DNA of 64,000 nucleotides, taken from positions 62,001 through 126,000 of the forward strand of contig JAGAZO010000017.1 of assembly GCA_017940005.1 (NCBI GenBank), given 5' to 3'. Source of the DNA: Treponema sp. Lineage in GTDB: Bacteria > Spirochaetota > Spirochaetia > Treponematales > Treponemataceae. The stretch's first letter is position 1. Every line of letters begins with the position of its first letter. Both the position numbers and the translations under genes were made by a program. The notes beneath the pieces were generated by a model. That model did no database searches and was not told where the DNA came from. It saw only the letters and a list, made by a program, of their open reading frames with translations. Positions 39 to 55,726 of the stretch are shown piece by piece.

Positions 39-1178
39 ATGTCGTTAGATTGTGGAATCGTGGGACTTCCAAACGTGGGAAAGTCAACTATATTTACTGC
101 ACTCACAGCCGCGCCAGCGAATGCGGAAAATTTTCCGTTCTGTACGATTGAGCCGAATATCGGTATTGTGGATTTACCCGACGAGCGGCTTTCATTTCTT
201 GCAAGCGTGTTCAACCCTAAAAAAACTACGCCCACATCGGTAAAGTTTGTTGATATTGCGGGACTTATAAAAGGCGCGGCGCAAGGCGAAGGGCTTGGCA
301 ATAAATTTCTTGCGAACATTCGCGAAGTTACGTGCATTGCGCATGTGGTGCGCTGTTTTGAAAACGCAGACATCATGCATGTGCGCGAAAACGCAAACAG
401 CGCCGCTTCCATCGATCCAAAAGCAGACATCGAGACGATAAACATGGAGCTTGCGGTTGCAGACTTGGACACGATTGCAAAGCGGCAGGAAAAAGTCACA
501 AAGATGAGCCGTCAGCTCGGAAAAGAAGAAGAAAAAAAATGGGCATCGTGGACAAGTGCCGTCGCAAAAATAAAGCCGTTGCTCGAAGCAGGAAAATGCG
601 CGCGTCAAGCAGATTTGACAGCAGAAGAAAAGCTTGCCGTGTACGACATGTTTTTGCTCACCATGAAACCTACATTTTACGTGTGCAACGTTGACGAAAG
701 CGCAATCGCAAGCGGAACAAATGAATATGTCGAAGTTGTCAAAAAAATCGCGCAAGAAGAAAATTCTGACATCGCGGTTATCTGTGGAAAATTTGAAAGC
801 GATTTGGCGGAAATAAAAGATGATGATGAGCGCAAAGAATTTATGGAAGCTGCGGGGCTCAAAGAATCGGGGCTTGCAAATGTCGCACGGAAAGCGTACA
901 TGCTCATGGGACTGCGCACATTTTTTACTGGCGGCGAAGACGAATGCCGCGCGTGGACAATTCATGCAGGCGACACTGCACCTAAAGCCGCAGGCGTCAT
1001 CCATACTGATTTTGAAAAAGGCTTTATAAAAGCGGAAGCGTATTCGATTGATGATCTCCGCCAATATGGAACAGAAGCGAAGATAAAAGAAGCGGGCAAG
1101 TATCGCATTGAAGGCAAAGAATACGTTGTGCAGGACGGCGATGTGCTTTTCTTTAAATTCAACACGGCGGGAAAATAA
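39..1178 (+). CDS. ychF: YchF, Obg-family P-loop ATPase/GTPase
   Basis: Ribosome-associated translation factor of the universal YchF/OLA1 family, 379 residues against about 363 in E. coli. The P-loop GLPNVGKS lies at residues 9-16, the G3 motif DIAGL follows, and the family-specific NVDE replaces the usual NKxD specificity motif near residues 217-220, which in YchF favours ATP. A helical hairpin fills the middle and the C-terminal TGS-like domain ends VLFFKFN. The start is set by an AAAGGTGA ribosome site 5 bases upstream. It leads a same-strand run towards earP and efp, so a translation-linked cluster is likely. Identification is secure. Confidence 0.97.
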   Translation: MSLDCGIVGLPNVGKSTIFTALTAAPANAENFPFCTIEPNIGIVDLPDERLSFLASVFNPKKTTPTSVKFVDIAGLIKGAAQGEGLGNKFLANIREVTCIAHVVRCFENADIMHVRENANSAASIDPKADIETINMELAVADLDTIAKRQEKVTKMSRQLGKEEEKKWASWTSAVAKIKPLLEAGKCARQADLTAEEKLAVYDMFLLTMKPTFYVCNVDESAIASGTNEYVEVVKKIAQEENSDIAVICGKFESDLAEIKDDDERKEFMEAAGLKESGLANVARKAYMLMGLRTFFTGGEDECRAWTIHAGDTAPKAAGVIHTDFEKGFIKAEAYSIDDLRQYGTEAKIKEAGKYRIEGKEYVVQDGDVLFFKFNTAGK

Positions 1179-1204
1179 CAACTAGTAATGCAAGGCGGCG
1201 TGCT

Positions 1205-1585
1205 ATGATATCATTTTCTGTTATGGATGCCTCAATTTCTTCTTTTGCAGGAACTGTGCCAAAAGAGTACGAAATATGCTATCCGCAAGATGAAGCCGCT
1301 GTCAAAAGCACCGACGACATGTGGTGGGCACTTCTGGCAAAAAAAACAGGCAGCAAGATAATCTGCATCGATGCATATAGCGGAAGCAGAATCTCTGAAA
1401 CAGGTACGCTTCCTGCGTGGCCTGCATGTATATCAGACAGGCGGATTGCACGGCTCAAAGGAACAGCTGTCATCGTATTCGGCGGCACGAATGATTTTGG
1501 ACAGCGCGATTCAGATGCCGCACCGCTCTCCGTTTTTCAAGATGCATATGCAACGCTCATAAAAAAATGCGCAGTGCTAGCGTAA
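1205..1585 (+). pseudogene. SGNH/GDSL hydrolase remnant
   Basis: A 126-residue product matching only the first half of a bacterial SGNH hydrolase. Block I, normally GDSIS, reads as a changed DASIS. The WWALLAKKTG segment, the SGSRIS segment and block III as VFGGTNDFG are present. The protein then stops, so the C-terminal DxxH block that supplies the catalytic Asp and His is missing; full-length relatives run to roughly 200 residues or more. A ribosome site (AAGGCGG, 6 bases before ATG) survives. With the altered block I and the lost triad I read it as a decaying gene between ychF and earP. It may still be translated. Confidence 0.65.
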
Positions 1586-1619
1586 CAGTGCAACGAATAT
1601 TGGAACTTTTGTTAAAGCG

Positions 1620-3350
1620 ATGGATTATTCTTGCGACATTACGATTCTCTGCCGCGTTGTAGACAATTACGGCGACATAGGTTTTGCATACAGGCTTGCC
1701 CGATCGCTTTCGCGCATACAGCCTCATGCGTTCATCCGCATAATCACAGATGACTTGCATGCGTTCTCGCTCCTTGCACCAGAAATTGATGCGTGCACTC
1801 CCGTGCAACAATACAACAACTGGCTCATATACGATTGGAATAATGCAGACATATGCACCGCCGCATTTTCAGAGCGGCAGCCGCGCACAATTCTTCAGTG
1901 CTTTCAATGCGGCTATCCGACTTGGCTTGAAGCGCTTTTGTTTGAAAAAAAATTTCCCGATGTTGTACATGTGGTAAACATAGACTACCTTACCGCTGAA
2001 TCATACGCAGAAGAGTTCCACGAGCTTGCTTCACTCACGAGAAGCGCGCGCGTGCAAAAAGTGAACTTTATGCCAGGATTTACCGCAAATACAGGCGGTC
2101 TGCTTCTCGACGGCGCAATGAATAGACGCACTATGCCCACCGCTACTTGTGCGCCAGAAAGCGTGCGCGCGCAAAACAGCATTCGCGCGCCATATACGTC
2201 AGAAAGCGTGCCACATAACACATCTGTGCCACATATTGCTGCTGACATGTATTCTACTCGCGTTTCTGTCAATGTACCAAACAGCACGCTGTCTGATACA
2301 TCATCTGCAATACCAAACAGCACACGTGAATTTTCCGTGCTCGTCTTCACCTATGAACGTGATTTTATGCCGCTCGTGCGCGCGCTTTCACAGTTTGAAA
2401 AATCGCGGGAGGCATTTTGCACGCAACACAACTACGCACCGCCAACAGTTCCATACGATTGCATGTCGCCAATCACACCGAACGCACAACGAACTTGCAT
2501 AACATTACACGAACAACGGGTTTGCGCACCGCCGCGCGCTTCACAACAAGCATCAACAATTTCATACACTGCATTTGAATCATGCACAGCCGCCCCACGC
2601 CGCACAGTTCGCGCATACGTAGCGGCAGGAAGCATGCAGCAATCGTTTGCACATGCGTGGCATGCTGGCGGCAAGCAGTTCGCGCTCACGCGGCTTTCGT
2701 TTTTGCCGCAACGAGAATGGGACGCGCTTCTTTTTTCTATGGACGCACTTTTTGTACGCGGAGAGGATTCGCTTTCGCGCGCGTGCCTTTCGGGCATTCC
2801 GTTTGTGTGGCATGCGTACAGACAAGATGGAGACTATCAAAAAGTAAAAGTGTCTGCGCTGCTCAAAACAATGCAGCCGTTTTTTGCAAAAGCAGATTTT
2901 GCGCTGCTCGAAGCGGTGTGGCTTGCGTTCAATACAACAAACGTTTGCAACGAGACGCAACGTAATGCAAGCGGCGAAACATGCAACAACAATGATGCGC
3001 AACCGCAGCACAAATTTGCCACACGCGCGCAGAGCTATGCCGCAACACACGTCGAGCGTAACGCGCTACACACATGCACCGCTAGCAACAATACAGATGC
3101 ACGCAATTCTACCGTCGTAAGCCGCGTTGCCATCACAAACAGCGTCGCTAATATACATTGCACCGTAGATGATACACTAGCTGAACTTCTTTTACAGTTT
3201 TTAGAAAACGCGGAAAAAATGCGTCAATCGTTTGCAGCGTTCGCAGCATCGCTTATCGCAAACGGCGACTTTGCACAGCATTTGCTCAATTTTTTGGCAA
3301 CACGAGAATCACCAACCTTGCCGCAAAGCAGTGAAGCTGGTGTTCTCTAA
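1620..3350 (+). CDS. earP: EarP, EF-P arginine rhamnosyltransferase, with three large insertions
   Basis: EarP transfers rhamnose from dTDP-rhamnose to an arginine of EF-P. The N-terminal DNYGDIG motif (residues 15-21) supplies the two conserved acidic residues D15 and D19. The nucleotide-binding half has FVRGEDSLSRA (378-388), which holds the conserved Glu. The protein has 576 residues against about 380 in the family. The excess sits in three low-complexity stretches rich in Ser, Thr, Asn, Ala and Cys, at about 167-235, 267-328 and 438-516; each lies between conserved blocks and stays in frame. The substrate gene efp follows about 230 bases downstream. No clear ribosome site is seen at the ATG. 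Identity is confident; the effect of the inserts is unknown. Confidence 0.93.
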   Translation: MDYSCDITILCRVVDNYGDIGFAYRLARSLSRIQPHAFIRIITDDLHAFSLLAPEIDACTPVQQYNNWLIYDWNNADICTAAFSERQPRTILQCFQCGYPTWLEALLFEKKFPDVVHVVNIDYLTAESYAEEFHELASLTRSARVQKVNFMPGFTANTGGLLLDGAMNRRTMPTATCAPESVRAQNSIRAPYTSESVPHNTSVPHIAADMYSTRVSVNVPNSTLSDTSSAIPNSTREFSVLVFTYERDFMPLVRALSQFEKSREAFCTQHNYAPPTVPYDCMSPITPNAQRTCITLHEQRVCAPPRASQQASTISYTAFESCTAAPRRTVRAYVAAGSMQQSFAHAWHAGGKQFALTRLSFLPQREWDALLFSMDALFVRGEDSLSRACLSGIPFVWHAYRQDGDYQKVKVSALLKTMQPFFAKADFALLEAVWLAFNTTNVCNETQRNASGETCNNNDAQPQHKFATRAQSYAATHVERNALHTCTASNNTDARNSTVVSRVAITNSVANIHCTVDDTLAELLLQFLENAEKMRQSFAAFAASLIANGDFAQHLLNFLATRESPTLPQSSEAGVL

Positions 3351-3508
3351 AAGTGTTGTAGTTGAGTTCAAGTCCTTTTTTCCTACAACCCTTGTCTAAC
3401 TTTTGAGGGACAGTTCAAAGTGCGGCATTCGAGCAACACACTTCTGAAAAATATCAAAATAAGAAACTGATTTTGTAAGAACACTAAAAAATACACATAC
3501 AAACTATA

Positions 3509-3537
3509 TTGAAATGTAGAATCATTTATGATATACT
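3509..3537 (+). promoter_or_regulatory. efp promoter
   Basis: TTGAAA (3509-3514), a 17-base spacer and TATACT (3532-3537) form a good sigma-70 promoter. It leaves a leader of about 33 bases before efp. The rest of the 3351-3576 gap holds only a weak inverted repeat, GTTGTAG/CTACAAC, after earP. Confidence 0.75.
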
Positions 3538-3576
3538 ATTTCCGCTTTAAACTTATTATTTTTAGAAGGGAATGAT

Positions 3577-4146
3577 ATGGTAACAACATCAGAGATTAAA
3601 GTTGGCTCAGCGTTTATGTACGAGGGCAATCCGCTCATGGTTCAGCGCATGCTCGGACAAAAATCGGGGCGCGCAGGCATGGTCACAAAAATCCGCGTAA
3701 AAAATATCGTTACTGGACAAACGCAAGATTTAGGACTTGACGCAGGCGAAAAATTTGATGAAGTTGACTTGGACGAAAAAAACATGAAGCTTTCGTACAT
3801 TGAAGGCAACACATATGTGTTCATGGACCAAGACACATATGACCAACTTGAAATGCCCAAAGACGACTTGGGCGACAGCGCTGGCTACATTTCTCCTGAC
3901 GACGACATTGACATTTCAATCACGTTCTACAATGGAAAATCAGTTGGCGTAAAACTGCCCATAAACGTAACGCGCACCATCACATACTGCGAGCCGGGCG
4001 TCAAGGGCAACACGAGCGGCAAGACATTCAAGCCCGCAACGCTCGATACAGGCATTGAAGTAAATGTACCGCTCTTTTGCGACGAAGGAGAGCGCATTGT
4101 CATTGACACGCGCGACGGTTCGTTTGTCGAGCGCGCAAAAAATTAA
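3577..4146 (+). CDS. efp: Elongation factor P, arginine type
   Basis: Translation factor that enters the ribosomal E/P site and relieves stalling at polyproline. It has 189 residues with the three beta-barrel domains of EF-P. The tip of the domain I loop reads KSGRAG, placing Arg32 where other groups carry the modified lysine. An SGR tip with Arg is the signature of EF-P modified by EarP, and earP lies directly upstream, so rhamnosylated Arg32 is expected. The C-terminal half has the family pattern GxKGNTSG...KPATLDTG and ends IDTRDGSFVER. AGAAGGG stands 6 bases before the ATG. It has its own promoter and a strong terminator, so it can be made independently of earP. Confidence 0.98.
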   Translation: MVTTSEIKVGSAFMYEGNPLMVQRMLGQKSGRAGMVTKIRVKNIVTGQTQDLGLDAGEKFDEVDLDEKNMKLSYIEGNTYVFMDQDTYDQLEMPKDDLGDSAGYISPDDDIDISITFYNGKSVGVKLPINVTRTITYCEPGVKGNTSGKTFKPATLDTGIEVNVPLFCDEGERIVIDTRDGSFVERAKN

Positions 4147-4216
4147 TAATTACAGTCACCTCACAAAACTGAAACATTTGGAGATGCCCGCAAAAAAATT
4201 AATAATTACGGGCGTT

Positions 4217-4251
4217 AAAAAAACGGCACTTAAATGTCGTGCCGTTTTTTT
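4217..4251 (+). terminator. Bidirectional intrinsic terminator after efp
   Basis: A 13-bp stem, A-run plus ACGGCAC (4217-4229) against GTGCCGT plus T-run (4239-4251), with a 9-base loop. The T-tract on either strand lets it end efp from the left and the helicase gene from the right. The rest of the gap (4252-4373) shows nothing recognisable. Confidence 0.88.
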
Positions 4252-4373
4252 TAACTTGCAGTGTGCTTAAAACTGCGTTGCAGCTTGCTTCACAAAAGCC
4301 GCGCTGTTTGCTCAACATTGCTTGCCCAACGCAGTGCGAACGCTATACGTGCGATTTTTCAATATGGAACAAA

Positions 4374-6254
4374 TTATGACAACTGCCCTTGCAAATCGTC
4401 TCCGCTAATACATTCAATATATTCTTTAACAAACATATAATGAGATGCAAATGAATTTGGCAATCTGAATAAGTGTATTCTATGTTCCTTACAAAGCATT
4501 TCCTTTTTATTATCACGTTCTCTTGTTGCACTGTTTACATAATGCTCATCACCGTCTAATTCAATAACAAGCAGCGGCATTTTGTATTTGTCACCAAGAC
4601 GCCAAAGTACAATATCAAATTCACTTTTTTCGTAATAACTTTTAAAAACAGATTCGTAATTTGGAAAAACTTTTTTCATCGGAACATTTCGTTCAATTCT
4701 AAAACCGCCGACAACAGACAAAACTTGTGAAAGCGTTTTGAAAAATTGTTTTTCGTATTCAGAGTTGTTTGATAGATTTGGCTTTTGCTTTGGAGAAGTA
4801 ACGGTGTAAGATTTTTTATGCTGAACACTTTCTGCATAAGTTATTAATTCTTTTACAGCATTTTCTTTATCTTTTGAAAGTGAGTATATAGCATTTTTAT
4901 CTGCACAGATGAGCAGTTCATTTTTTGCACGAGTTACAGCAACATTTGTAATTTCTTTGTTGTCTTTTACCCAATCAAAAGTTTTGCTGCTCGTAGTTTG
5001 TGCAAGTGCAAATGATAAAAAAATTACATCGTATTCAGAACCTTGCACTTTATGGATTGTACTTGCAAATACATTTGTAATATTTTCCTCTTGCAATTTT
5101 TTATTAATAAGATTTGCCTGATTTACAAATGGAGTTATAATTGCTATTTTTTTAGTTTTATATTCATTGTTTTTGAGAACTTGAATAATTGCGTTGCTCT
5201 CTTCTTCGTAAGAATTTTTTTTATCACCAGAATGATTTACAACATCAAATAATGAAACTTTGCCCTTCAATCTGTTTTCGATATGCAATCGATTATCATA
5301 ATAATAGGCATTTGAAAATTGAATGATTTCTGGAGCACACCGATAGTGATACCTTAACAAAATATTTTTTGAAATAGTATCAGTTTGTTGCATAAGGAGC
5401 AAAATTGAACTATGCACATAATCATATATGTGAGGATTTTTTATGCGCAGTGCTTTTTGAAAAATTTTTTGCTTTTTCTCATCTAGCAGAATAACAGGCT
5501 TCAGTTGATTTGTATCACCAACGAGTAAAAGGTGTTCCGCACGAATAATTGGAATCAGTGAACGAGCAATATCGCATTGTCCACTTTCGTCCATAATGCA
5601 CATATCAAAATGAGGAACAGCACTTCCAATTTTTTCTGCAGAAATATTTGTTGAAAACCAAACAGGAAACACTTTTATGAGCAGTGAAATATTCGTGTCG
5701 TTGGAAAGGTATTTCTTAAAATCTTGTACCGCTTTATGTTTATTTTCTTCATACAAAATTTCTACAAAAGGTTTATATTCATCATTTTGTAATTTTTGCA
5801 AAAGCTTAATCGAATGGTAATATAAAAAGTTTATAAAATTTTTATCTTCCAAACCTGCTATACATAATTTTTGAATATCTTCGTTCGTAAGATTTGGCAA
5901 CGCTGCTATCTTGTTTTCTACATTTTTAATTTCATTATTTAACGCTCTGAAAAAATTATTGGAAGAATCAATGTATTGTTTCCAATTTTCTAATGTTTCT
6001 TTTCGCTTGAAAAGTTGTTGCCTTTGTTCATATAACGAAAGACTTTCTGAAAGTGCCTTTGTGTTTTTTCTAACAAGTTCATTTTGCTCATTTGTTTTGT
6101 TATCGTACGGTTTGTTTTTTTGCATTGCAGTTTCGTAAAGATATTTAATACGAGAAATAGTTTCTGCTAATATATTTTCACGCTCTGAAGTTTTTACACT
6201 GCTGCCAATTCTTATAATTGGAAATAAGATTTCTTGATTATTGCAACGTGGCAA
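4374..6254 (-). CDS. SF1 helicase-nuclease, C-terminal part after a frameshift
   Basis: Carries the second half of a superfamily 1 helicase of the DNA2/NAM7 type: motif II as MDESGQCD, motif III as GDTNQLKP, motif V as VQGSEYDVIF and motif VI as NVAVTRAKNELL. The last 130 residues look like a DUF2726/restriction-like nuclease domain with FDIVLW and VIELDGDEH as the likely metal-binding acidic positions. No start signal precedes its first ATG. Reading back in this frame through 6255-6330 gives the conserved CSNNNAP segment that joins the upstream P-loop part, so this is the tail of one gene. AT-rich codon use unlike efp or the transporter suggests transfer. A role in DNA repair or phage defence is possible but unproven. 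Confidence 0.8.
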   Translation of the reverse strand: MPRCNNQEILFPIIRIGSSVKTSERENILAETISRIKYLYETAMQKNKPYDNKTNEQNELVRKNTKALSESLSLYEQRQQLFKRKETLENWKQYIDSSNNFFRALNNEIKNVENKIAALPNLTNEDIQKLCIAGLEDKNFINFLYYHSIKLLQKLQNDEYKPFVEILYEENKHKAVQDFKKYLSNDTNISLLIKVFPVWFSTNISAEKIGSAVPHFDMCIMDESGQCDIARSLIPIIRAEHLLLVGDTNQLKPVILLDEKKQKIFQKALRIKNPHIYDYVHSSILLLMQQTDTISKNILLRYHYRCAPEIIQFSNAYYYDNRLHIENRLKGKVSLFDVVNHSGDKKNSYEEESNAIIQVLKNNEYKTKKIAIITPFVNQANLINKKLQEENITNVFASTIHKVQGSEYDVIFLSFALAQTTSSKTFDWVKDNKEITNVAVTRAKNELLICADKNAIYSLSKDKENAVKELITYAESVQHKKSYTVTSPKQKPNLSNNSEYEKQFFKTLSQVLSVVGGFRIERNVPMKKVFPNYESVFKSYYEKSEFDIVLWRLGDKYKMPLLVIELDGDEHYVNSATRERDNKKEMLCKEHRIHLFRLPNSFASHYMFVKEYIECISGDDLQGQLS

Positions 6255-51501: not shown

Positions 51502-52347
51502 TTAACAATTCCCCGTGAACACATGCAAAAGATATTCGCGCGCAACTTGCGCAAGGCGGCGCACTGTTGCAACAGGAGTAGGCTCGCCGTCCGCCATGAG
51601 ATAGCGCGGGAAAAAGCGCGTAATGTGCAGCGGAATGTTTGCATCGATTTTTGAAACCCAGCGTGCAAGTTCACGCATCTCGTTTTCGCTGTCGTTAAAA
51701 TGCGGCACAATGAGCGTCGTCAACTCAACATGCGTGCGGCTCTGACAAAGCGTTATGGCATTTTTAACAATTTCAAAATCGCCGCCAAGTTTTTTGTACC
51801 AGCTGTCAGTAAATCCTTTTAAATCGATATTCATCGCATCAATATGCGGAAGCACTTCTTCAAGCACCGACACATTCACCGAGCCGCTCGTGACGACAAC
51901 ATTTTTCATGCCGCGTTCATGTACAAGGAGAGAAGCATCTCGCACATATTCCCACGATATGAGCGGCTCGTTGTACGTGAACGCAACGCCGATGTTACCG
52001 CATCGTGCAAACTCCTCTGCTTTTTGTGCGAGCATTTCAGGCGACACGTATTCAGTTGCAGCGTCATCGCCAACTTGCGAAATGCTTGCATTTTGGCAAA
52101 ACGGACAATGCAAGTTACAGCCAAAGCTGCCCGCAGAGAGAATCATGCTGTCGGGATAAAACAAGTACAGCGGCTTTTTTTCAATAGGGTCGAGCGAAAG
52201 AGACGTGAGCATTCCGTAATTGAGCGGCACAATGCTGCCGTTTTTGTTTGCACGAGCGCGACACTGCCCCACTTGCCCCTCTGCAAGAGCGCAGCGGTAA
52301 AAACATGTAGCGCAGGTGATTTTTTGATTGGGGTTTATCACGGACAT
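51502..52347 (-). CDS. amrS: AmmeMemoRadiSam system radical SAM enzyme (AmrS)
   Basis: A 281-residue radical SAM protein. The [4Fe-4S] motif is CNLHCPFC (C77, C81, C84), preceded by four more Cys (12, 15, 19, 29) as is typical of AmrS. Glycine-rich FTYNEPLISWEYV and the NIDLKGFTDSWYKKL block also match. It is the radical SAM part of a three-part system with a Memo-like and an AMMECR1-like domain, both present here in one gene at 54.2 kb. The reaction is not established. The first bases of this gene are duplicated at 53.1 kb, flanking an inserted HicAB module, but the reading frame here is intact. Confidence 0.93.
   Translation of the reverse strand: MSVINPNQKITCATCFYRCALAEGQVGQCRARANKNGSIVPLNYGMLTSLSLDPIEKKPLYLFYPDSMILSAGSFGCNLHCPFCQNASISQVGDDAATEYVSPEMLAQKAEEFARCGNIGVAFTYNEPLISWEYVRDASLLVHERGMKNVVVTSGSVNVSVLEEVLPHIDAMNIDLKGFTDSWYKKLGGDFEIVKNAITLCQSRTHVELTTLIVPHFNDSENEMRELARWVSKIDANIPLHITRFFPRYLMADGEPTPVATVRRLAQVAREYLLHVFTGNC
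52306..52341. repeat. Direct repeat, copy 1 (inside amrS)
   Basis: A 36-base sequence covering codons 3-14 of amrS, identical to 53135-53170. The two copies bracket the HicAB module. Confidence 0.95.
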
Positions 52348-52447
52348 ATTTATAGCAACCTTTGATTTGTGCAGCAAGATTGATGATTATTCGACAAACG
52401 CTCCCGCATAACAGTCATTCATTTTTCCGTAAAACAAAGTTTTTTGC

Positions 52448-52849
52448 TTACAATGCCAAAAATGGACGATTAAAAACTTTTTGCAAGCGGTACAGTGTTT
52501 CAAGCGTAGGATTTGTCTTGCGCGGATTTTCAAGCCGTTGATATTGCTGATATGTCATTCCTGCTGCCGCTGCAACATCCTTTTGAGATCGATTCGCACG
52601 AGCCTTGCGCAATTCTATCGCAAAGGCAACTTTTGGCGAGACTTCTATAGGATAACCGCCTGTGTACTTTGGCTCAGGGATAGAATACCCATTGTCAAAA
52701 TGCGATGCCAATACGCCGTCCAATGCTTCTTTTGCCATCTCTAATGCGTGCGCTTGCGTATGACCATACGTTAGAACATTCGGCATGTCAGGGAATTGCG
52801 CAATATACGTTTTCTCATCTTGTTCTGTAATGATGCAGTTGTATGTCAT
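52448..52849 (-). CDS. hicB: HicB antitoxin
   Basis: A 133-residue antitoxin. The N-terminal half is the degraded RNase H-like HicB fold with YIAQFPDMPNVLTYGHT and ALEMAKEALDG; the C-terminal half is a helix-turn-helix with RSQKDVAAAAGMTYQQYQRLE, which should bind the operator in front of hicA. The ATG overlaps the hicA stop codon (ATGA). Order hicA-hicB with coupled translation is the usual form. The pair sits inside a duplicated target in the AmmeMemo operon. Confidence 0.93.
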   Translation of the reverse strand: MTYNCIITEQDEKTYIAQFPDMPNVLTYGHTQAHALEMAKEALDGVLASHFDNGYSIPEPKYTGGYPIEVSPKVAFAIELRKARANRSQKDVAAAAGMTYQQYQRLENPRKTNPTLETLYRLQKVFNRPFLAL

Positions 52850-53061
52850 TTTTCAACCTCCTTTTTCGTTTCTGGGTCTATATCTGCCTCTTTTAGAAGT
52901 ATTTTTGCAAACATCCCCATATCATCATTTCCGTGTACAGGAACAGCAACAGAACGTGATTTACCAGGCTTTTTAAAAATATGGTGCGAACCGCTAATCC
53001 TATCTAATACCCAACCATTCTTTTTTAAGATTTTTATCACCTGTCTTGCCGTCATGCCCAT
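52846..53061 (-). CDS. hicA: HicA toxin, mRNA interferase
   Basis: A 71-residue toxin with a double-stranded-RNA-binding-like fold. TARQVIKILKKNGW and the catalytic His in SGSHHIFKKPG are visible, then VPVHGNDDMGMF. It cleaves mRNA when not held by HicB. I start at the ATG at 53061, which lies 6 bases after TATGCT; an ATG 15 bases earlier would fall inside the -10. The antitoxin gene follows with an ATGA overlap. Confidence 0.93.
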   Translation of the reverse strand: MGMTARQVIKILKKNGWVLDRISGSHHIFKKPGKSRSVAVPVHGNDDMGMFAKILLKEADIDPETKKEVEK

Positions 53062-53067
53062 GTATCC

Positions 53068-53096
53068 AGCATACAATATATATGTTGTACCGTCAA
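53068..53096 (-). promoter_or_regulatory. hicAB promoter (leaderless)
   Basis: TTGACG (53091-53096), 17-base spacer, TATGCT (53068-53073) on the minus strand, then 6 bases to the hicA ATG. Confidence 0.65.
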
Positions 53097-53110
53097 GATA
53101 TTTTGTTATA

Positions 53111-53176
53111 TTAACCTTGTATGGTCACCGCTCTTGTAGCGCAGGTGATTTTTTGATTGGGGTTTATCACGCTCAT
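53111..53176 (-). pseudogene. Orphaned 5' end of amrS
   Basis: An ATG overlapping the methyltransferase stop codon (ATGA) opens MSVINPNQKITCAT, the first 14 residues of AmrS, then runs seven unrelated codons to a stop. It marks where amrS used to begin before the HicAB module was inserted; 21 codons, surely non-functional. Confidence 0.85.
53135..53170. repeat. Direct repeat, copy 2 (orphaned amrS start)
   Basis: Identical to 52306-52341; 829 bases separate the starts of the two copies. Confidence 0.95.
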
Positions 53177-54132
53177 TTCCTCTTCCGCTGCTCATGCGTT
53201 GTATTGCGCTCCCAAAATACGCCGTCAGTATATCCTTGAATCGCTGTATTCTCTTCTGCGCGCAAAAGCCGCTTTTCTGCAAGCAGGCAATACTCTTTAT
53301 TGATTTCAATGCCGCAATAGTTTCGCGCAAGTTTTTTTGCGACGACAGCAGTTGTGCCACTGCCAAGAAACGGATCGAACACGAGGCTGTTCTGACGCGA
53401 ACTTGCAAGAATCAATTTTGCGATGAGTTTTTCGCTCTTTTGCGTCGGGTGCTCAGTGTTTTCACTCATCGACCAGTACGGTACTGTAATGTCGTCCCAA
53501 AAATTCGATGCGCCAGTCAAACGAAATTTCTTGCCATCAGTTTCTTGCCAATCTTTCGGCACGCCATTCTCGCGATACGGCGCAACAACGCGACGTTTTT
53601 GCTTCACTGCCTCTGCATTAAAATAATAATTTTCGCTCACTGTTGCAAATAAAATATCTTCGGAACAATTTTTCCAGTTTGCTTTTGAACTCCTGCCTTT
53701 TTCGCGCTGCCACGTAATGCGATTGCGCACAATCAAATGACGTGAAACAACAGCATACATCGCCGCCATGCATTTCCAGTCGCCGCACAAATACACGCTC
53801 GCATCTCTTTTGAGCAGCCGTACAACTTTTGGAAACCACGAGGCAAGATACTGCGTGTATTCATCATCGCTGCGCTCAGTGAATTTTGTTCCGTGGAAAT
53901 TTTTTGTGATGTTGTACGGCGGGTCGAGTATCATCAAATCGACGCAATTTGACGGAAAACAGTCTATTGCAAAAATCATGTCGTCGTTAAAAATTTTATT
54001 AATAATTTCAGAATAAGAAAGCGCTTCATGTGCATGACAGAGGCGCGGCGTTAATAACTCTCTGTCGCTGTCAGTGAGCGTCACCGAGTGATTTCGCAGC
54101 GAGTAGATTTTTGCAGTTTTGTCTTGTGCCAT
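53173..54132 (-). CDS. DNA adenine- or cytosine-N-methyltransferase, beta class, orphan
   Basis: A 319-residue DNA methyltransferase. The catalytic motif IV DPPYNITKNF comes first (about residue 71) and the SAM-binding motif I DPFLGSGTTAVVAKK near the C-terminus, the order of the beta class. DPPY fits N6-adenine, less often N4-cytosine; the recognition sequence cannot be read. No restriction enzyme gene is nearby. The ATG at 54132 has GAGGTA 8 bases upstream. Its stop codon overlaps the old amrS start, so it was coupled to amrS before the HicAB insertion. It may act as a gene-regulating methylase. Confidence 0.92.
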   Translation of the reverse strand: MAQDKTAKIYSLRNHSVTLTDSDRELLTPRLCHAHEALSYSEIINKIFNDDMIFAIDCFPSNCVDLMILDPPYNITKNFHGTKFTERSDDEYTQYLASWFPKVVRLLKRDASVYLCGDWKCMAAMYAVVSRHLIVRNRITWQREKGRSSKANWKNCSEDILFATVSENYYFNAEAVKQKRRVVAPYRENGVPKDWQETDGKKFRLTGASNFWDDITVPYWSMSENTEHPTQKSEKLIAKLILASSRQNSLVFDPFLGSGTTAVVAKKLARNYCGIEINKEYCLLAEKRLLRAEENTAIQGYTDGVFWERNTTHEQRKRK

Positions 54133-54221
54133 ACGCATTACCTCGTTTTATTAACGCTGCCCTGTATTAGCAATGCCGTCTCATGCTGTGATGCAGCGCC
54201 ATTTTAATAATGCGTCCCAGT

Positions 54222-55646
54222 CTAATAATGACGCACTACTTCAAATCGTTCCAAGTCGGGGTTTTCAGCTGCGTTGATTCCCGCTTTCCTGCATGCAATG
54301 TCTATTTGCTCTTCAACGGTGTTCACCGATTCAAGATTGGGCAAAAGCAAGCCGCGCCTCGTTCCCTTTGTCACGATAACGCCAAATCGTTTTACATCAA
54401 GCTCATCCTTTGAAGCGATTTTTTCTGCTCCCCCCAAAACATCAACACTATACACAAGAAACGGAAGTTCGCGCTCGGTCACTGCTGGGAAACGCGGGTC
54501 GCGCGTGGCGGCGCTCACAGCATTTGCAATGATTTCTTCTGCGAGCGACGAGCATGTGGTCGCTATCGTTCCAATACAACCGCGAAGCATTCCGTCTTTT
54601 TTGAGCGACACAAATGCGCCCGCTCGATTGTTAAGCAGCTCGCAAGAAAGTTTCCACCCGTTAAACGGCGCATCGTCGCACACAACTTTGCCATTTCGCA
54701 CGCACAACGTTTTTCCCGTCTTCACATATGTCTCAATCGTGGCGCGCGCAAGGCGCACATATTCATCTTCGTTATTTTTCCGCGCATCAAGTTCGCTACG
54801 CTCAAACGCTTCATATTGCGTCAAAAAATTGCGGCGTTCGTCGTAAGCCAAAACATCGTACATGCAAAATCCATAACCTACACCGAACGTACTTTCGTGC
54901 GAAAGTTTTTGCGCGCGAACTGCCGTGCAATCAAGCGCGCCCGCCATGATGACAAACGAGCGGTGTCCGCACTCTGCAGCGTTTTCACAAAAATCGAGAG
55001 AGAAGGAAAAAAGTTTTCCAAAATCAGCGTCTCCCATCACTTTCATAATGCGCTCATCATACTGCGGTCCTTCTTCACGAAACCCGTACGGTCCGTCTGC
55101 TTTGAGCACATGTGACAAATCGCCGCTTGCAACAAACACAACGCGCTTTTTCGTTTTTTCCGCCGCACGCTTAATGCACTTGCCGAGCATATAATGATTT
55201 TTATACGACTGCCCTGAAAGCCCTATGCGCACCACTTTGTAATCCGCACAATAGTTATTGATAAAATACAGCGGCACCATCGTTCCGTGATCAAGCGATT
55301 TGTCGCGCTCGCCTTTTGTTCCTGCCGCTATGCCGAACTCCGCAGCTTCCTCGCAAATTGACGCGACAAGCTGCTCATCGTATGTAACGCGAAAACGCAC
55401 ATTCGGTGCATCGAATCGAGAAAAACTACCTGACGCTTCTGCTCCGGGAGAAATGTGGAAGTAATCAGCATAGAGTGTTGCATGTGGAGATGTTATGACA
55501 ATAGTTTCAGGCGCAAGCTCTGCAATCTTTTTTGCAACAATTTCATATGAAGCAACGCTCGCAGCAATTTTGTTTTCTTCTCCGCGTCCAATCTCATGCA
55601 CGATGAGCGGCGGATGCGGCACCATAAACGCACCAACGATTGCCAT
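54222..55646 (-). CDS. AmmeMemoRadiSam protein AB: Memo-like dioxygenase fold fused to AMMECR1
   Basis: A 474-residue two-domain protein. Residues 1-270 are the Memo/LigB fold, with conserved His in MVPHPPLIVH, SPHATLY and GDLSHVL. Residues 290-474 are AMMECR1, with the signature GMLRGCIGTI and RDPRFPAVTERELP. Together with the radical SAM gene amrS at 51.5 kb it makes the complete three-component AmmeMemoRadiSam set, whose chemistry is unknown. GGGGGTG stands before the ATG at 55646. The CmpB-like gene lies 80 bases upstream on the same strand, the methyltransferase 89 bases downstream. Confidence 0.92.
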   Translation of the reverse strand: MAIVGAFMVPHPPLIVHEIGRGEENKIAASVASYEIVAKKIAELAPETIVITSPHATLYADYFHISPGAEASGSFSRFDAPNVRFRVTYDEQLVASICEEAAEFGIAAGTKGERDKSLDHGTMVPLYFINNYCADYKVVRIGLSGQSYKNHYMLGKCIKRAAEKTKKRVVFVASGDLSHVLKADGPYGFREEGPQYDERIMKVMGDADFGKLFSFSLDFCENAAECGHRSFVIMAGALDCTAVRAQKLSHESTFGVGYGFCMYDVLAYDERRNFLTQYEAFERSELDARKNNEDEYVRLARATIETYVKTGKTLCVRNGKVVCDDAPFNGWKLSCELLNNRAGAFVSLKKDGMLRGCIGTIATTCSSLAEEIIANAVSAATRDPRFPAVTERELPFLVYSVDVLGGAEKIASKDELDVKRFGVIVTKGTRRGLLLPNLESVNTVEEQIDIACRKAGINAAENPDLERFEVVRHY

Positions 55647-55726
55647 AGTCACCCCCAAAATAATAATTATTGAAAACCTCAAAAAACACAAAGCACCTTT
55701 AGTTGCACTTTTTCGAGAATGCTCTA

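Follow-up and report, generated by a model that had tools for sequence, protein, structure and literature searches.

A hicAB toxin-antitoxin unit inserted at the start of amrS with a long target duplication in Treponema

Results

On the minus strand of the window (the whole 64,000-nucleotide stretch of Treponema sp. DNA analysed here), a gene with LigB and AMMECR1 domains is followed by an N6/N4 DNA methylase gene, an orphan amrS start, hicA, hicB and an intact amrS gene (Table 1). Direct repeats whose starts are 829 nt apart enclose the hicAB pair. A first-pass annotation of the window had described them as identical over 36 bases; the repeats are indeed present, and their length is corrected here to 37 nt of exact identity within a 42-nt match. 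The two mismatches are confined to codon 2 (Ser), which reads TCC in the intact amrS and AGC in the orphan copy. The orphan ATG shares an ATGA with the methylase stop codon, as previously annotated and as can be read directly in the window sequence. A scan of the full 294-kb contig (C17) for repeat pairs of at least 26 nt, with at least 88% identity and a spacing of 150-6000, returned only about six pairs. Given this scarcity, the amrS repeat pair is not a chance occurrence.

Table 1 Features of the amrS locus and of other repeat-flanked units
Feature	Position	Strand	Basis or remark
Intact amrS (radical SAM), target gene	51502..52347	-	Domain match
Target duplication, copy 1 (most likely codons 1-14 of intact amrS)	52306..52347	-	Codon 2 TCC as in the empty-site sister G097
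Insert of 787 bp, missing in G097	52348..53134	-	DNA comparison: gap of 789 in the query, overlap of 40 bp in the subject
Core also present in the hicAB modules of further Treponema genomes, reaching from a promoter/operator-like region as far as the stop of hicB	52446..53104	-	
hicB antitoxin gene, C-terminal helix-turn-helix	52448..52849	-	PF15919 and PF01381
hicA toxin gene	52846..53076	-	PF07927, E 6e-18; GSHHIF motif kept
Target duplication, copy 2 (orphan amrS start beside methylase stop, ATGA)	53135..53176	-	Agrees with copy 1 at 40/42 positions, with an exact run of 37 nt
N6/N4 DNA methylase gene, upstream neighbour; adjoins amrS in G097 too	53173..54138	-	Domain match
LigB/Memo and AMMECR1 gene, first gene of the cluster	54222..55691	-	Domain match
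Rpn-like PDDEXK_2 gene, 36-bp duplication over the start of an ArfB-like release-factor gene	C17:136915-137937 (L154 16915-17937), outside the window		G097 site empty, one repeat copy
PIN/DUF2281 module at polA start, 56-bp duplication over first codons and a promoter-like stretch	C7:134246-135037 (L194, L210)		55/56 match
DUF3791-DUF3990 pair upstream of metG, two identical 40-bp repeats	C20:42089-43073 (L289 2089-3073)		G097 site empty, one repeat copy
Pair of a MazE-like antitoxin gene and a PIN_3 gene ahead of an ABC ATPase gene, flanked by identical 33-bp promoter-like repeats	C16:51028-51772 (L293 11028-11772)		
UPF0175-DUF3368 pair beside two partial nucleotidyltransferase-type gene copies	C8:135334-136786 (L206)		
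brnTA (64-bp repeats) and DUF3791-DUF3990 pair (171-bp repeats), close together	G097 C2 (L167 3492-6176)		

The DNA between the repeat copies encodes HicA and a HicB-like protein that carries an HTH_3 domain. The match of HicB to PF15919 (E 4e-6) lies just above its cut-off, the HTH_3 match coming in addition. The hicA ORF as listed starts at a TTG; the likely start codon is an ATG (MGMTARQ) a few codons further in. Similarity at the DNA level to related modules in 13 other genomes extends over about 655 bp only, a stretch that opens with a TTGAC-type -35 and an operator-like palindrome and ends at the stop codon of hicB; the rest of the insert, roughly 30 bp and 98 bp, is passenger DNA. HicB relatives at 64-78% identity are patchily distributed across the family, in host genomes named Treponema, Spirochaetaceae or Spirochaetia. 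Comparison of 105 flank pairs of related hicAB modules revealed no common neighbour or consistent flanks, with some translated similarity in 19 pairs, nearly all of it weak and at unrelated positions.

The sister species G097 (86% DNA identity at the amrS locus in a genus-wide DNA search) provides the corresponding empty site. Its methylase gene runs into amrS without hicAB, and the two hicAB flanks meet and overlap by 40 bp, equivalent to one repeat copy. As this locus combines a single repeat with the absence of hicAB, the window arrangement is the product of a real insertion: hicAB entered amrS at its 5' end, a long stretch of the target was duplicated and the gene stayed whole. This is what the first-pass annotation had proposed, the comparison being with a different species and not an isogenic strain. 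That annotation had also predicted a hicAB-free relative in which methylase and amrS are joined through ATGA: the gene order and single repeat are as predicted, but in G097 the first codons of amrS are GTG TCC GTG, and the gene shares 11 nt with the end of the methylase gene. Since codon 2 is TCC in both G097 and the intact amrS, the duplication most likely comprises about 42 bp, covering codons 1-14 and thus the start codon, in place of the codons 3-14 originally suggested; the orphan copy would have changed later. A broad comparison of G097 with contig C17 yielded little, owing to the scant synteny of the sampled stretches with this contig.

The methylase gene lies between LigB/AMMECR1 and amrS in the window, in G097 and in a few others; in most relatives within the genus it is located elsewhere with varied neighbours, and in many of these LigB/AMMECR1 adjoins amrS. 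This distribution raised the option that the methylase forms part of the insert, which was rejected: G097 and several other species carry the LigB/AMMECR1-methylase-amrS order without hicAB. Hence, the methylase was in place before the insertion.

Variable direct repeats of 33-171 bp also surround PIN/VapBC-like, MazE-PIN, DUF3791-DUF3990, UPF0175-DUF3368 and BrnTA units, another HicAB and an Rpn-like nuclease gene (Table 1). Duplications measure 33, 36, 40, 42, 50 and 56 bp in the genome of the window, where the repeat scan covered sampled stretches amounting to ~1.09 Mb of 2.4 Mb, and 52-171 bp in other genomes. They often extend over promoters or starts of genes, for example polA, metG and arfB, with promoters within the repeats assigned by eye. 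At polA, G097 matches the locus as far as the duplication end and not past it, corresponding to a one-sided empty site. A second PIN/DUF2281 module of the genome of the window has tight 50-bp repeats, and a PIN module in G133 lies between 52-bp repeats. The two nucleotidyltransferase-type copies are ~91% identical with an internal length difference, representing an older case. On contig C17, two further repeats, one of 37 bp (exact) and one of 152 bp, are present at C17:127581-131917 (L154 7581-11917), their copies 2.3 and 3.2 kb apart; these pairs (C17:127581 and C17:128609) are located at exported-protein gene starts 2-3 kb apart and were set aside.

The first-pass annotation had suggested a look for other HicAB modules with long flanking duplications. 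In G268, named as a yak-colon Treponema MAG, a related hicAB interrupts a phd-like gene at its start; the duplication here is 102 bp long (101/102) and contains an apparent promoter and start. A hicAB of Fibrobacter has flanking repeats as well. Most relatives of the window hicAB are without long flanking repeats. Repeat-flanked inserts other than toxin-antitoxin units include Ogt-like genes in G051 and an ORF of no assigned family at C7:219257.

Within the genome of the window, tight flanking repeats were observed at 4/11 toxin or Rpn matches; the background, taken at positions outside such pairs, is 0.26% (binomial 1.4e-8). The count is more fairly given as 3/10, since the Rpn case was found via its repeat. 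None of 11 modules in E. coli K-12 is flanked. A looser survey found 8 of 66 loci flanked vs ~1% of positions; survey loci L060, L063 and L065, being repetitive or loosely placed, were left out of the good cases.

Discussion

The insertion, its empty sister site, the ~42-bp duplication, the intact amrS and the recurrence around other toxin-antitoxin units are, taken as a whole, best explained by a free-standing hicAB unit that entered the first amrS codons by insertion with long target duplication, through illegitimate repair or replication, and was retained by addiction. We judge this explanation probable. The moving unit would have been the ~655 bp from hicAB promoter to hicB stop together with some passenger DNA. 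It could have been joined by fill-in of a widely staggered break or, alternatively, by template switching that resumed upstream of the point of leaving. No donor site of the hicAB insert was identified, and no junction homology or microhomology above chance was seen at the inserts.

Recombination between the repeats would cleanly excise any insert, while losing an addiction unit would presumably harm the cell; the excess of toxin-antitoxin units among retained inserts may be explained by this combination. That these Treponema modules owe their retention to addiction is our inference, and the presence of inserts without a toxin indicates addiction is not the whole story of retention. Similarly, a duplication spanning promoter and start codon would keep the target gene usable, which may account for the excess of gene starts among targets.

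As the first-pass annotation had stated, the insert contains no transposase, integrase or terminal inverted repeat in its ORFs or ends, and thus lacks the hallmarks of transposons and insertion sequences. There is likewise no linked integrase or conserved core of the kind that marks genomic islands, the repeat sequence differing at each site. No inverted repeats were found between insert ends (longest end-to-end match 3-5 nt in 11 cases). Long target duplications are not expected of integron cassettes. Duplications of 33-171 bp, the lack of common ends or inverted repeats, and the unrelated insert families together argue against both a fixed-stagger transposase and a fixed-core site-specific recombinase.

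The recurrence of one architecture across several unrelated modules in one genus would fit an undescribed, dedicated Treponema insertion system which would target toxin-antitoxin units to promoters and leave long duplications of variable length, possibly with the involvement of Rpn/PDDEXK nucleases, an Rpn-like gene itself being situated between copies of a 36-bp duplication. We consider such a system unlikely: there is no common end sequence or helper gene, just two Rpn relatives are present in the genome of the window, and flanking repeats also occur at the Fibrobacter hicAB and a Microcystis ParDE-like module.

Integration into gene ends with the gene restored is typical of site-specifically integrating elements. 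A non-autonomous element could thus have been integrated by a tyrosine or serine recombinase acting in trans, with the repeats as attachment cores rebuilding the gene end, and repeats tens of bp long fit such cores. The cores would, however, range over 33-171 bp in length and be unrelated in sequence from one site to the next, and the inserts are of unrelated families and just 593-951 bp long, with no common ends and no recombinase gene. This makes site-specific integration distinctly unlikely.

Campbell-type integration of a circle already bearing hicAB and an amrS-start fragment, excised for instance from another cell with the same insertion, appears quite improbable. A circle of exactly this kind would arise if the two existing repeats recombined, but this scenario only pushes the origin of the hicAB-amrS linkage back in time and leaves the different targets in G268 and elsewhere unexplained. 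An assembly artefact is scarcely credible even for a draft genome of 21 contigs, as the locus lies within a 294-kb contig with its neighbours intact and similar cases exist in the single-contig genomes G043 and G051.

Illegitimate insertion of a bare hicAB unit, the reading we prefer, can be extended only tentatively. It is possible that a shared insertion process, with a preference for promoters and gene starts and a duplication of ~30-170 bp, spreads bare gene pairs from many unrelated toxin-antitoxin families in Treponema; clean deletion would always be open to them, and the survivors would be those whose loss is punished by addiction. As far as our literature search reached, the wider pattern over several toxin-antitoxin families has not been described, and no report of such insertions in Treponema was found. 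The findings bear on the movement of small chromosomal toxin-antitoxin units between genomes when no mobile element is visible, and on the reasons for their persistence. Furthermore, recent insertions, empty sister sites and built-in excision repeats render both movement and persistence testable.

The module itself is an ordinary type II HicAB system, with HicA and HicB families in one operon, the toxin gene first, a helix-turn-helix in the antitoxin and an operator-like palindrome ahead of hicA; we note no difference from such systems, and toxin-antitoxin activity is predicted. A Microcystis ParDE-like module is similarly described as a toxin-antitoxin pair between two identical 152-bp direct repeats (PMC7935541). 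It differs in the 16-bp inverted repeat inside each repeat, and the available portion of that report gives no empty site or target gene start. In Haloquadratum walsbyi, direct repeats derived from target duplication are argued to permit exact, trace-free removal of inserts (PMC3119063), the kind of reversal that we assume for the Treponema inserts. The Haloquadratum case differs in being archaeal, in involving transposons with short duplications, and in concerning loss rather than gain.

The closest counterpart is provided by restriction-modification systems. The first-pass annotation held that the way of moving was not a known one, yet 'insertion with long target duplication' was named in 2000 for Helicobacter pylori restriction-modification systems by Nobusato et al., as cited in PMC3874152, PMC1643837 and PMC2654758. 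The mode of movement hence belongs to a known class, the mechanism of which remains unexplained in the literature. According to a 2013 review, some restriction-modification systems, which are addiction units too, insert with long variable target duplications on the order of 100 bp (PMC3874152). The Treponema loci resemble these insertions in a relative's empty site with a single repeat copy (G097 at amrS, arfB and metG) and in variable duplications far longer than those of transposons (42 bp here; 33-171 bp elsewhere); the insert here is hicAB and not a restriction-modification unit, and the class name is used in a structural sense only. According to reviews and citing papers, the restriction-modification insertions of Nobusato et al. 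(2000) and Furuta et al. (2010) are likewise bare addiction-type gene units with no transposase, their long variable target duplications inferred via empty sites in relatives (PMC3874152). They differ from the present cases, which involve several toxin-antitoxin families, occur in Treponema, and often show a duplication that takes in a promoter or the start of a gene. A pattern known from restriction-modification systems is thereby extended to other addiction modules and to spirochaetes.
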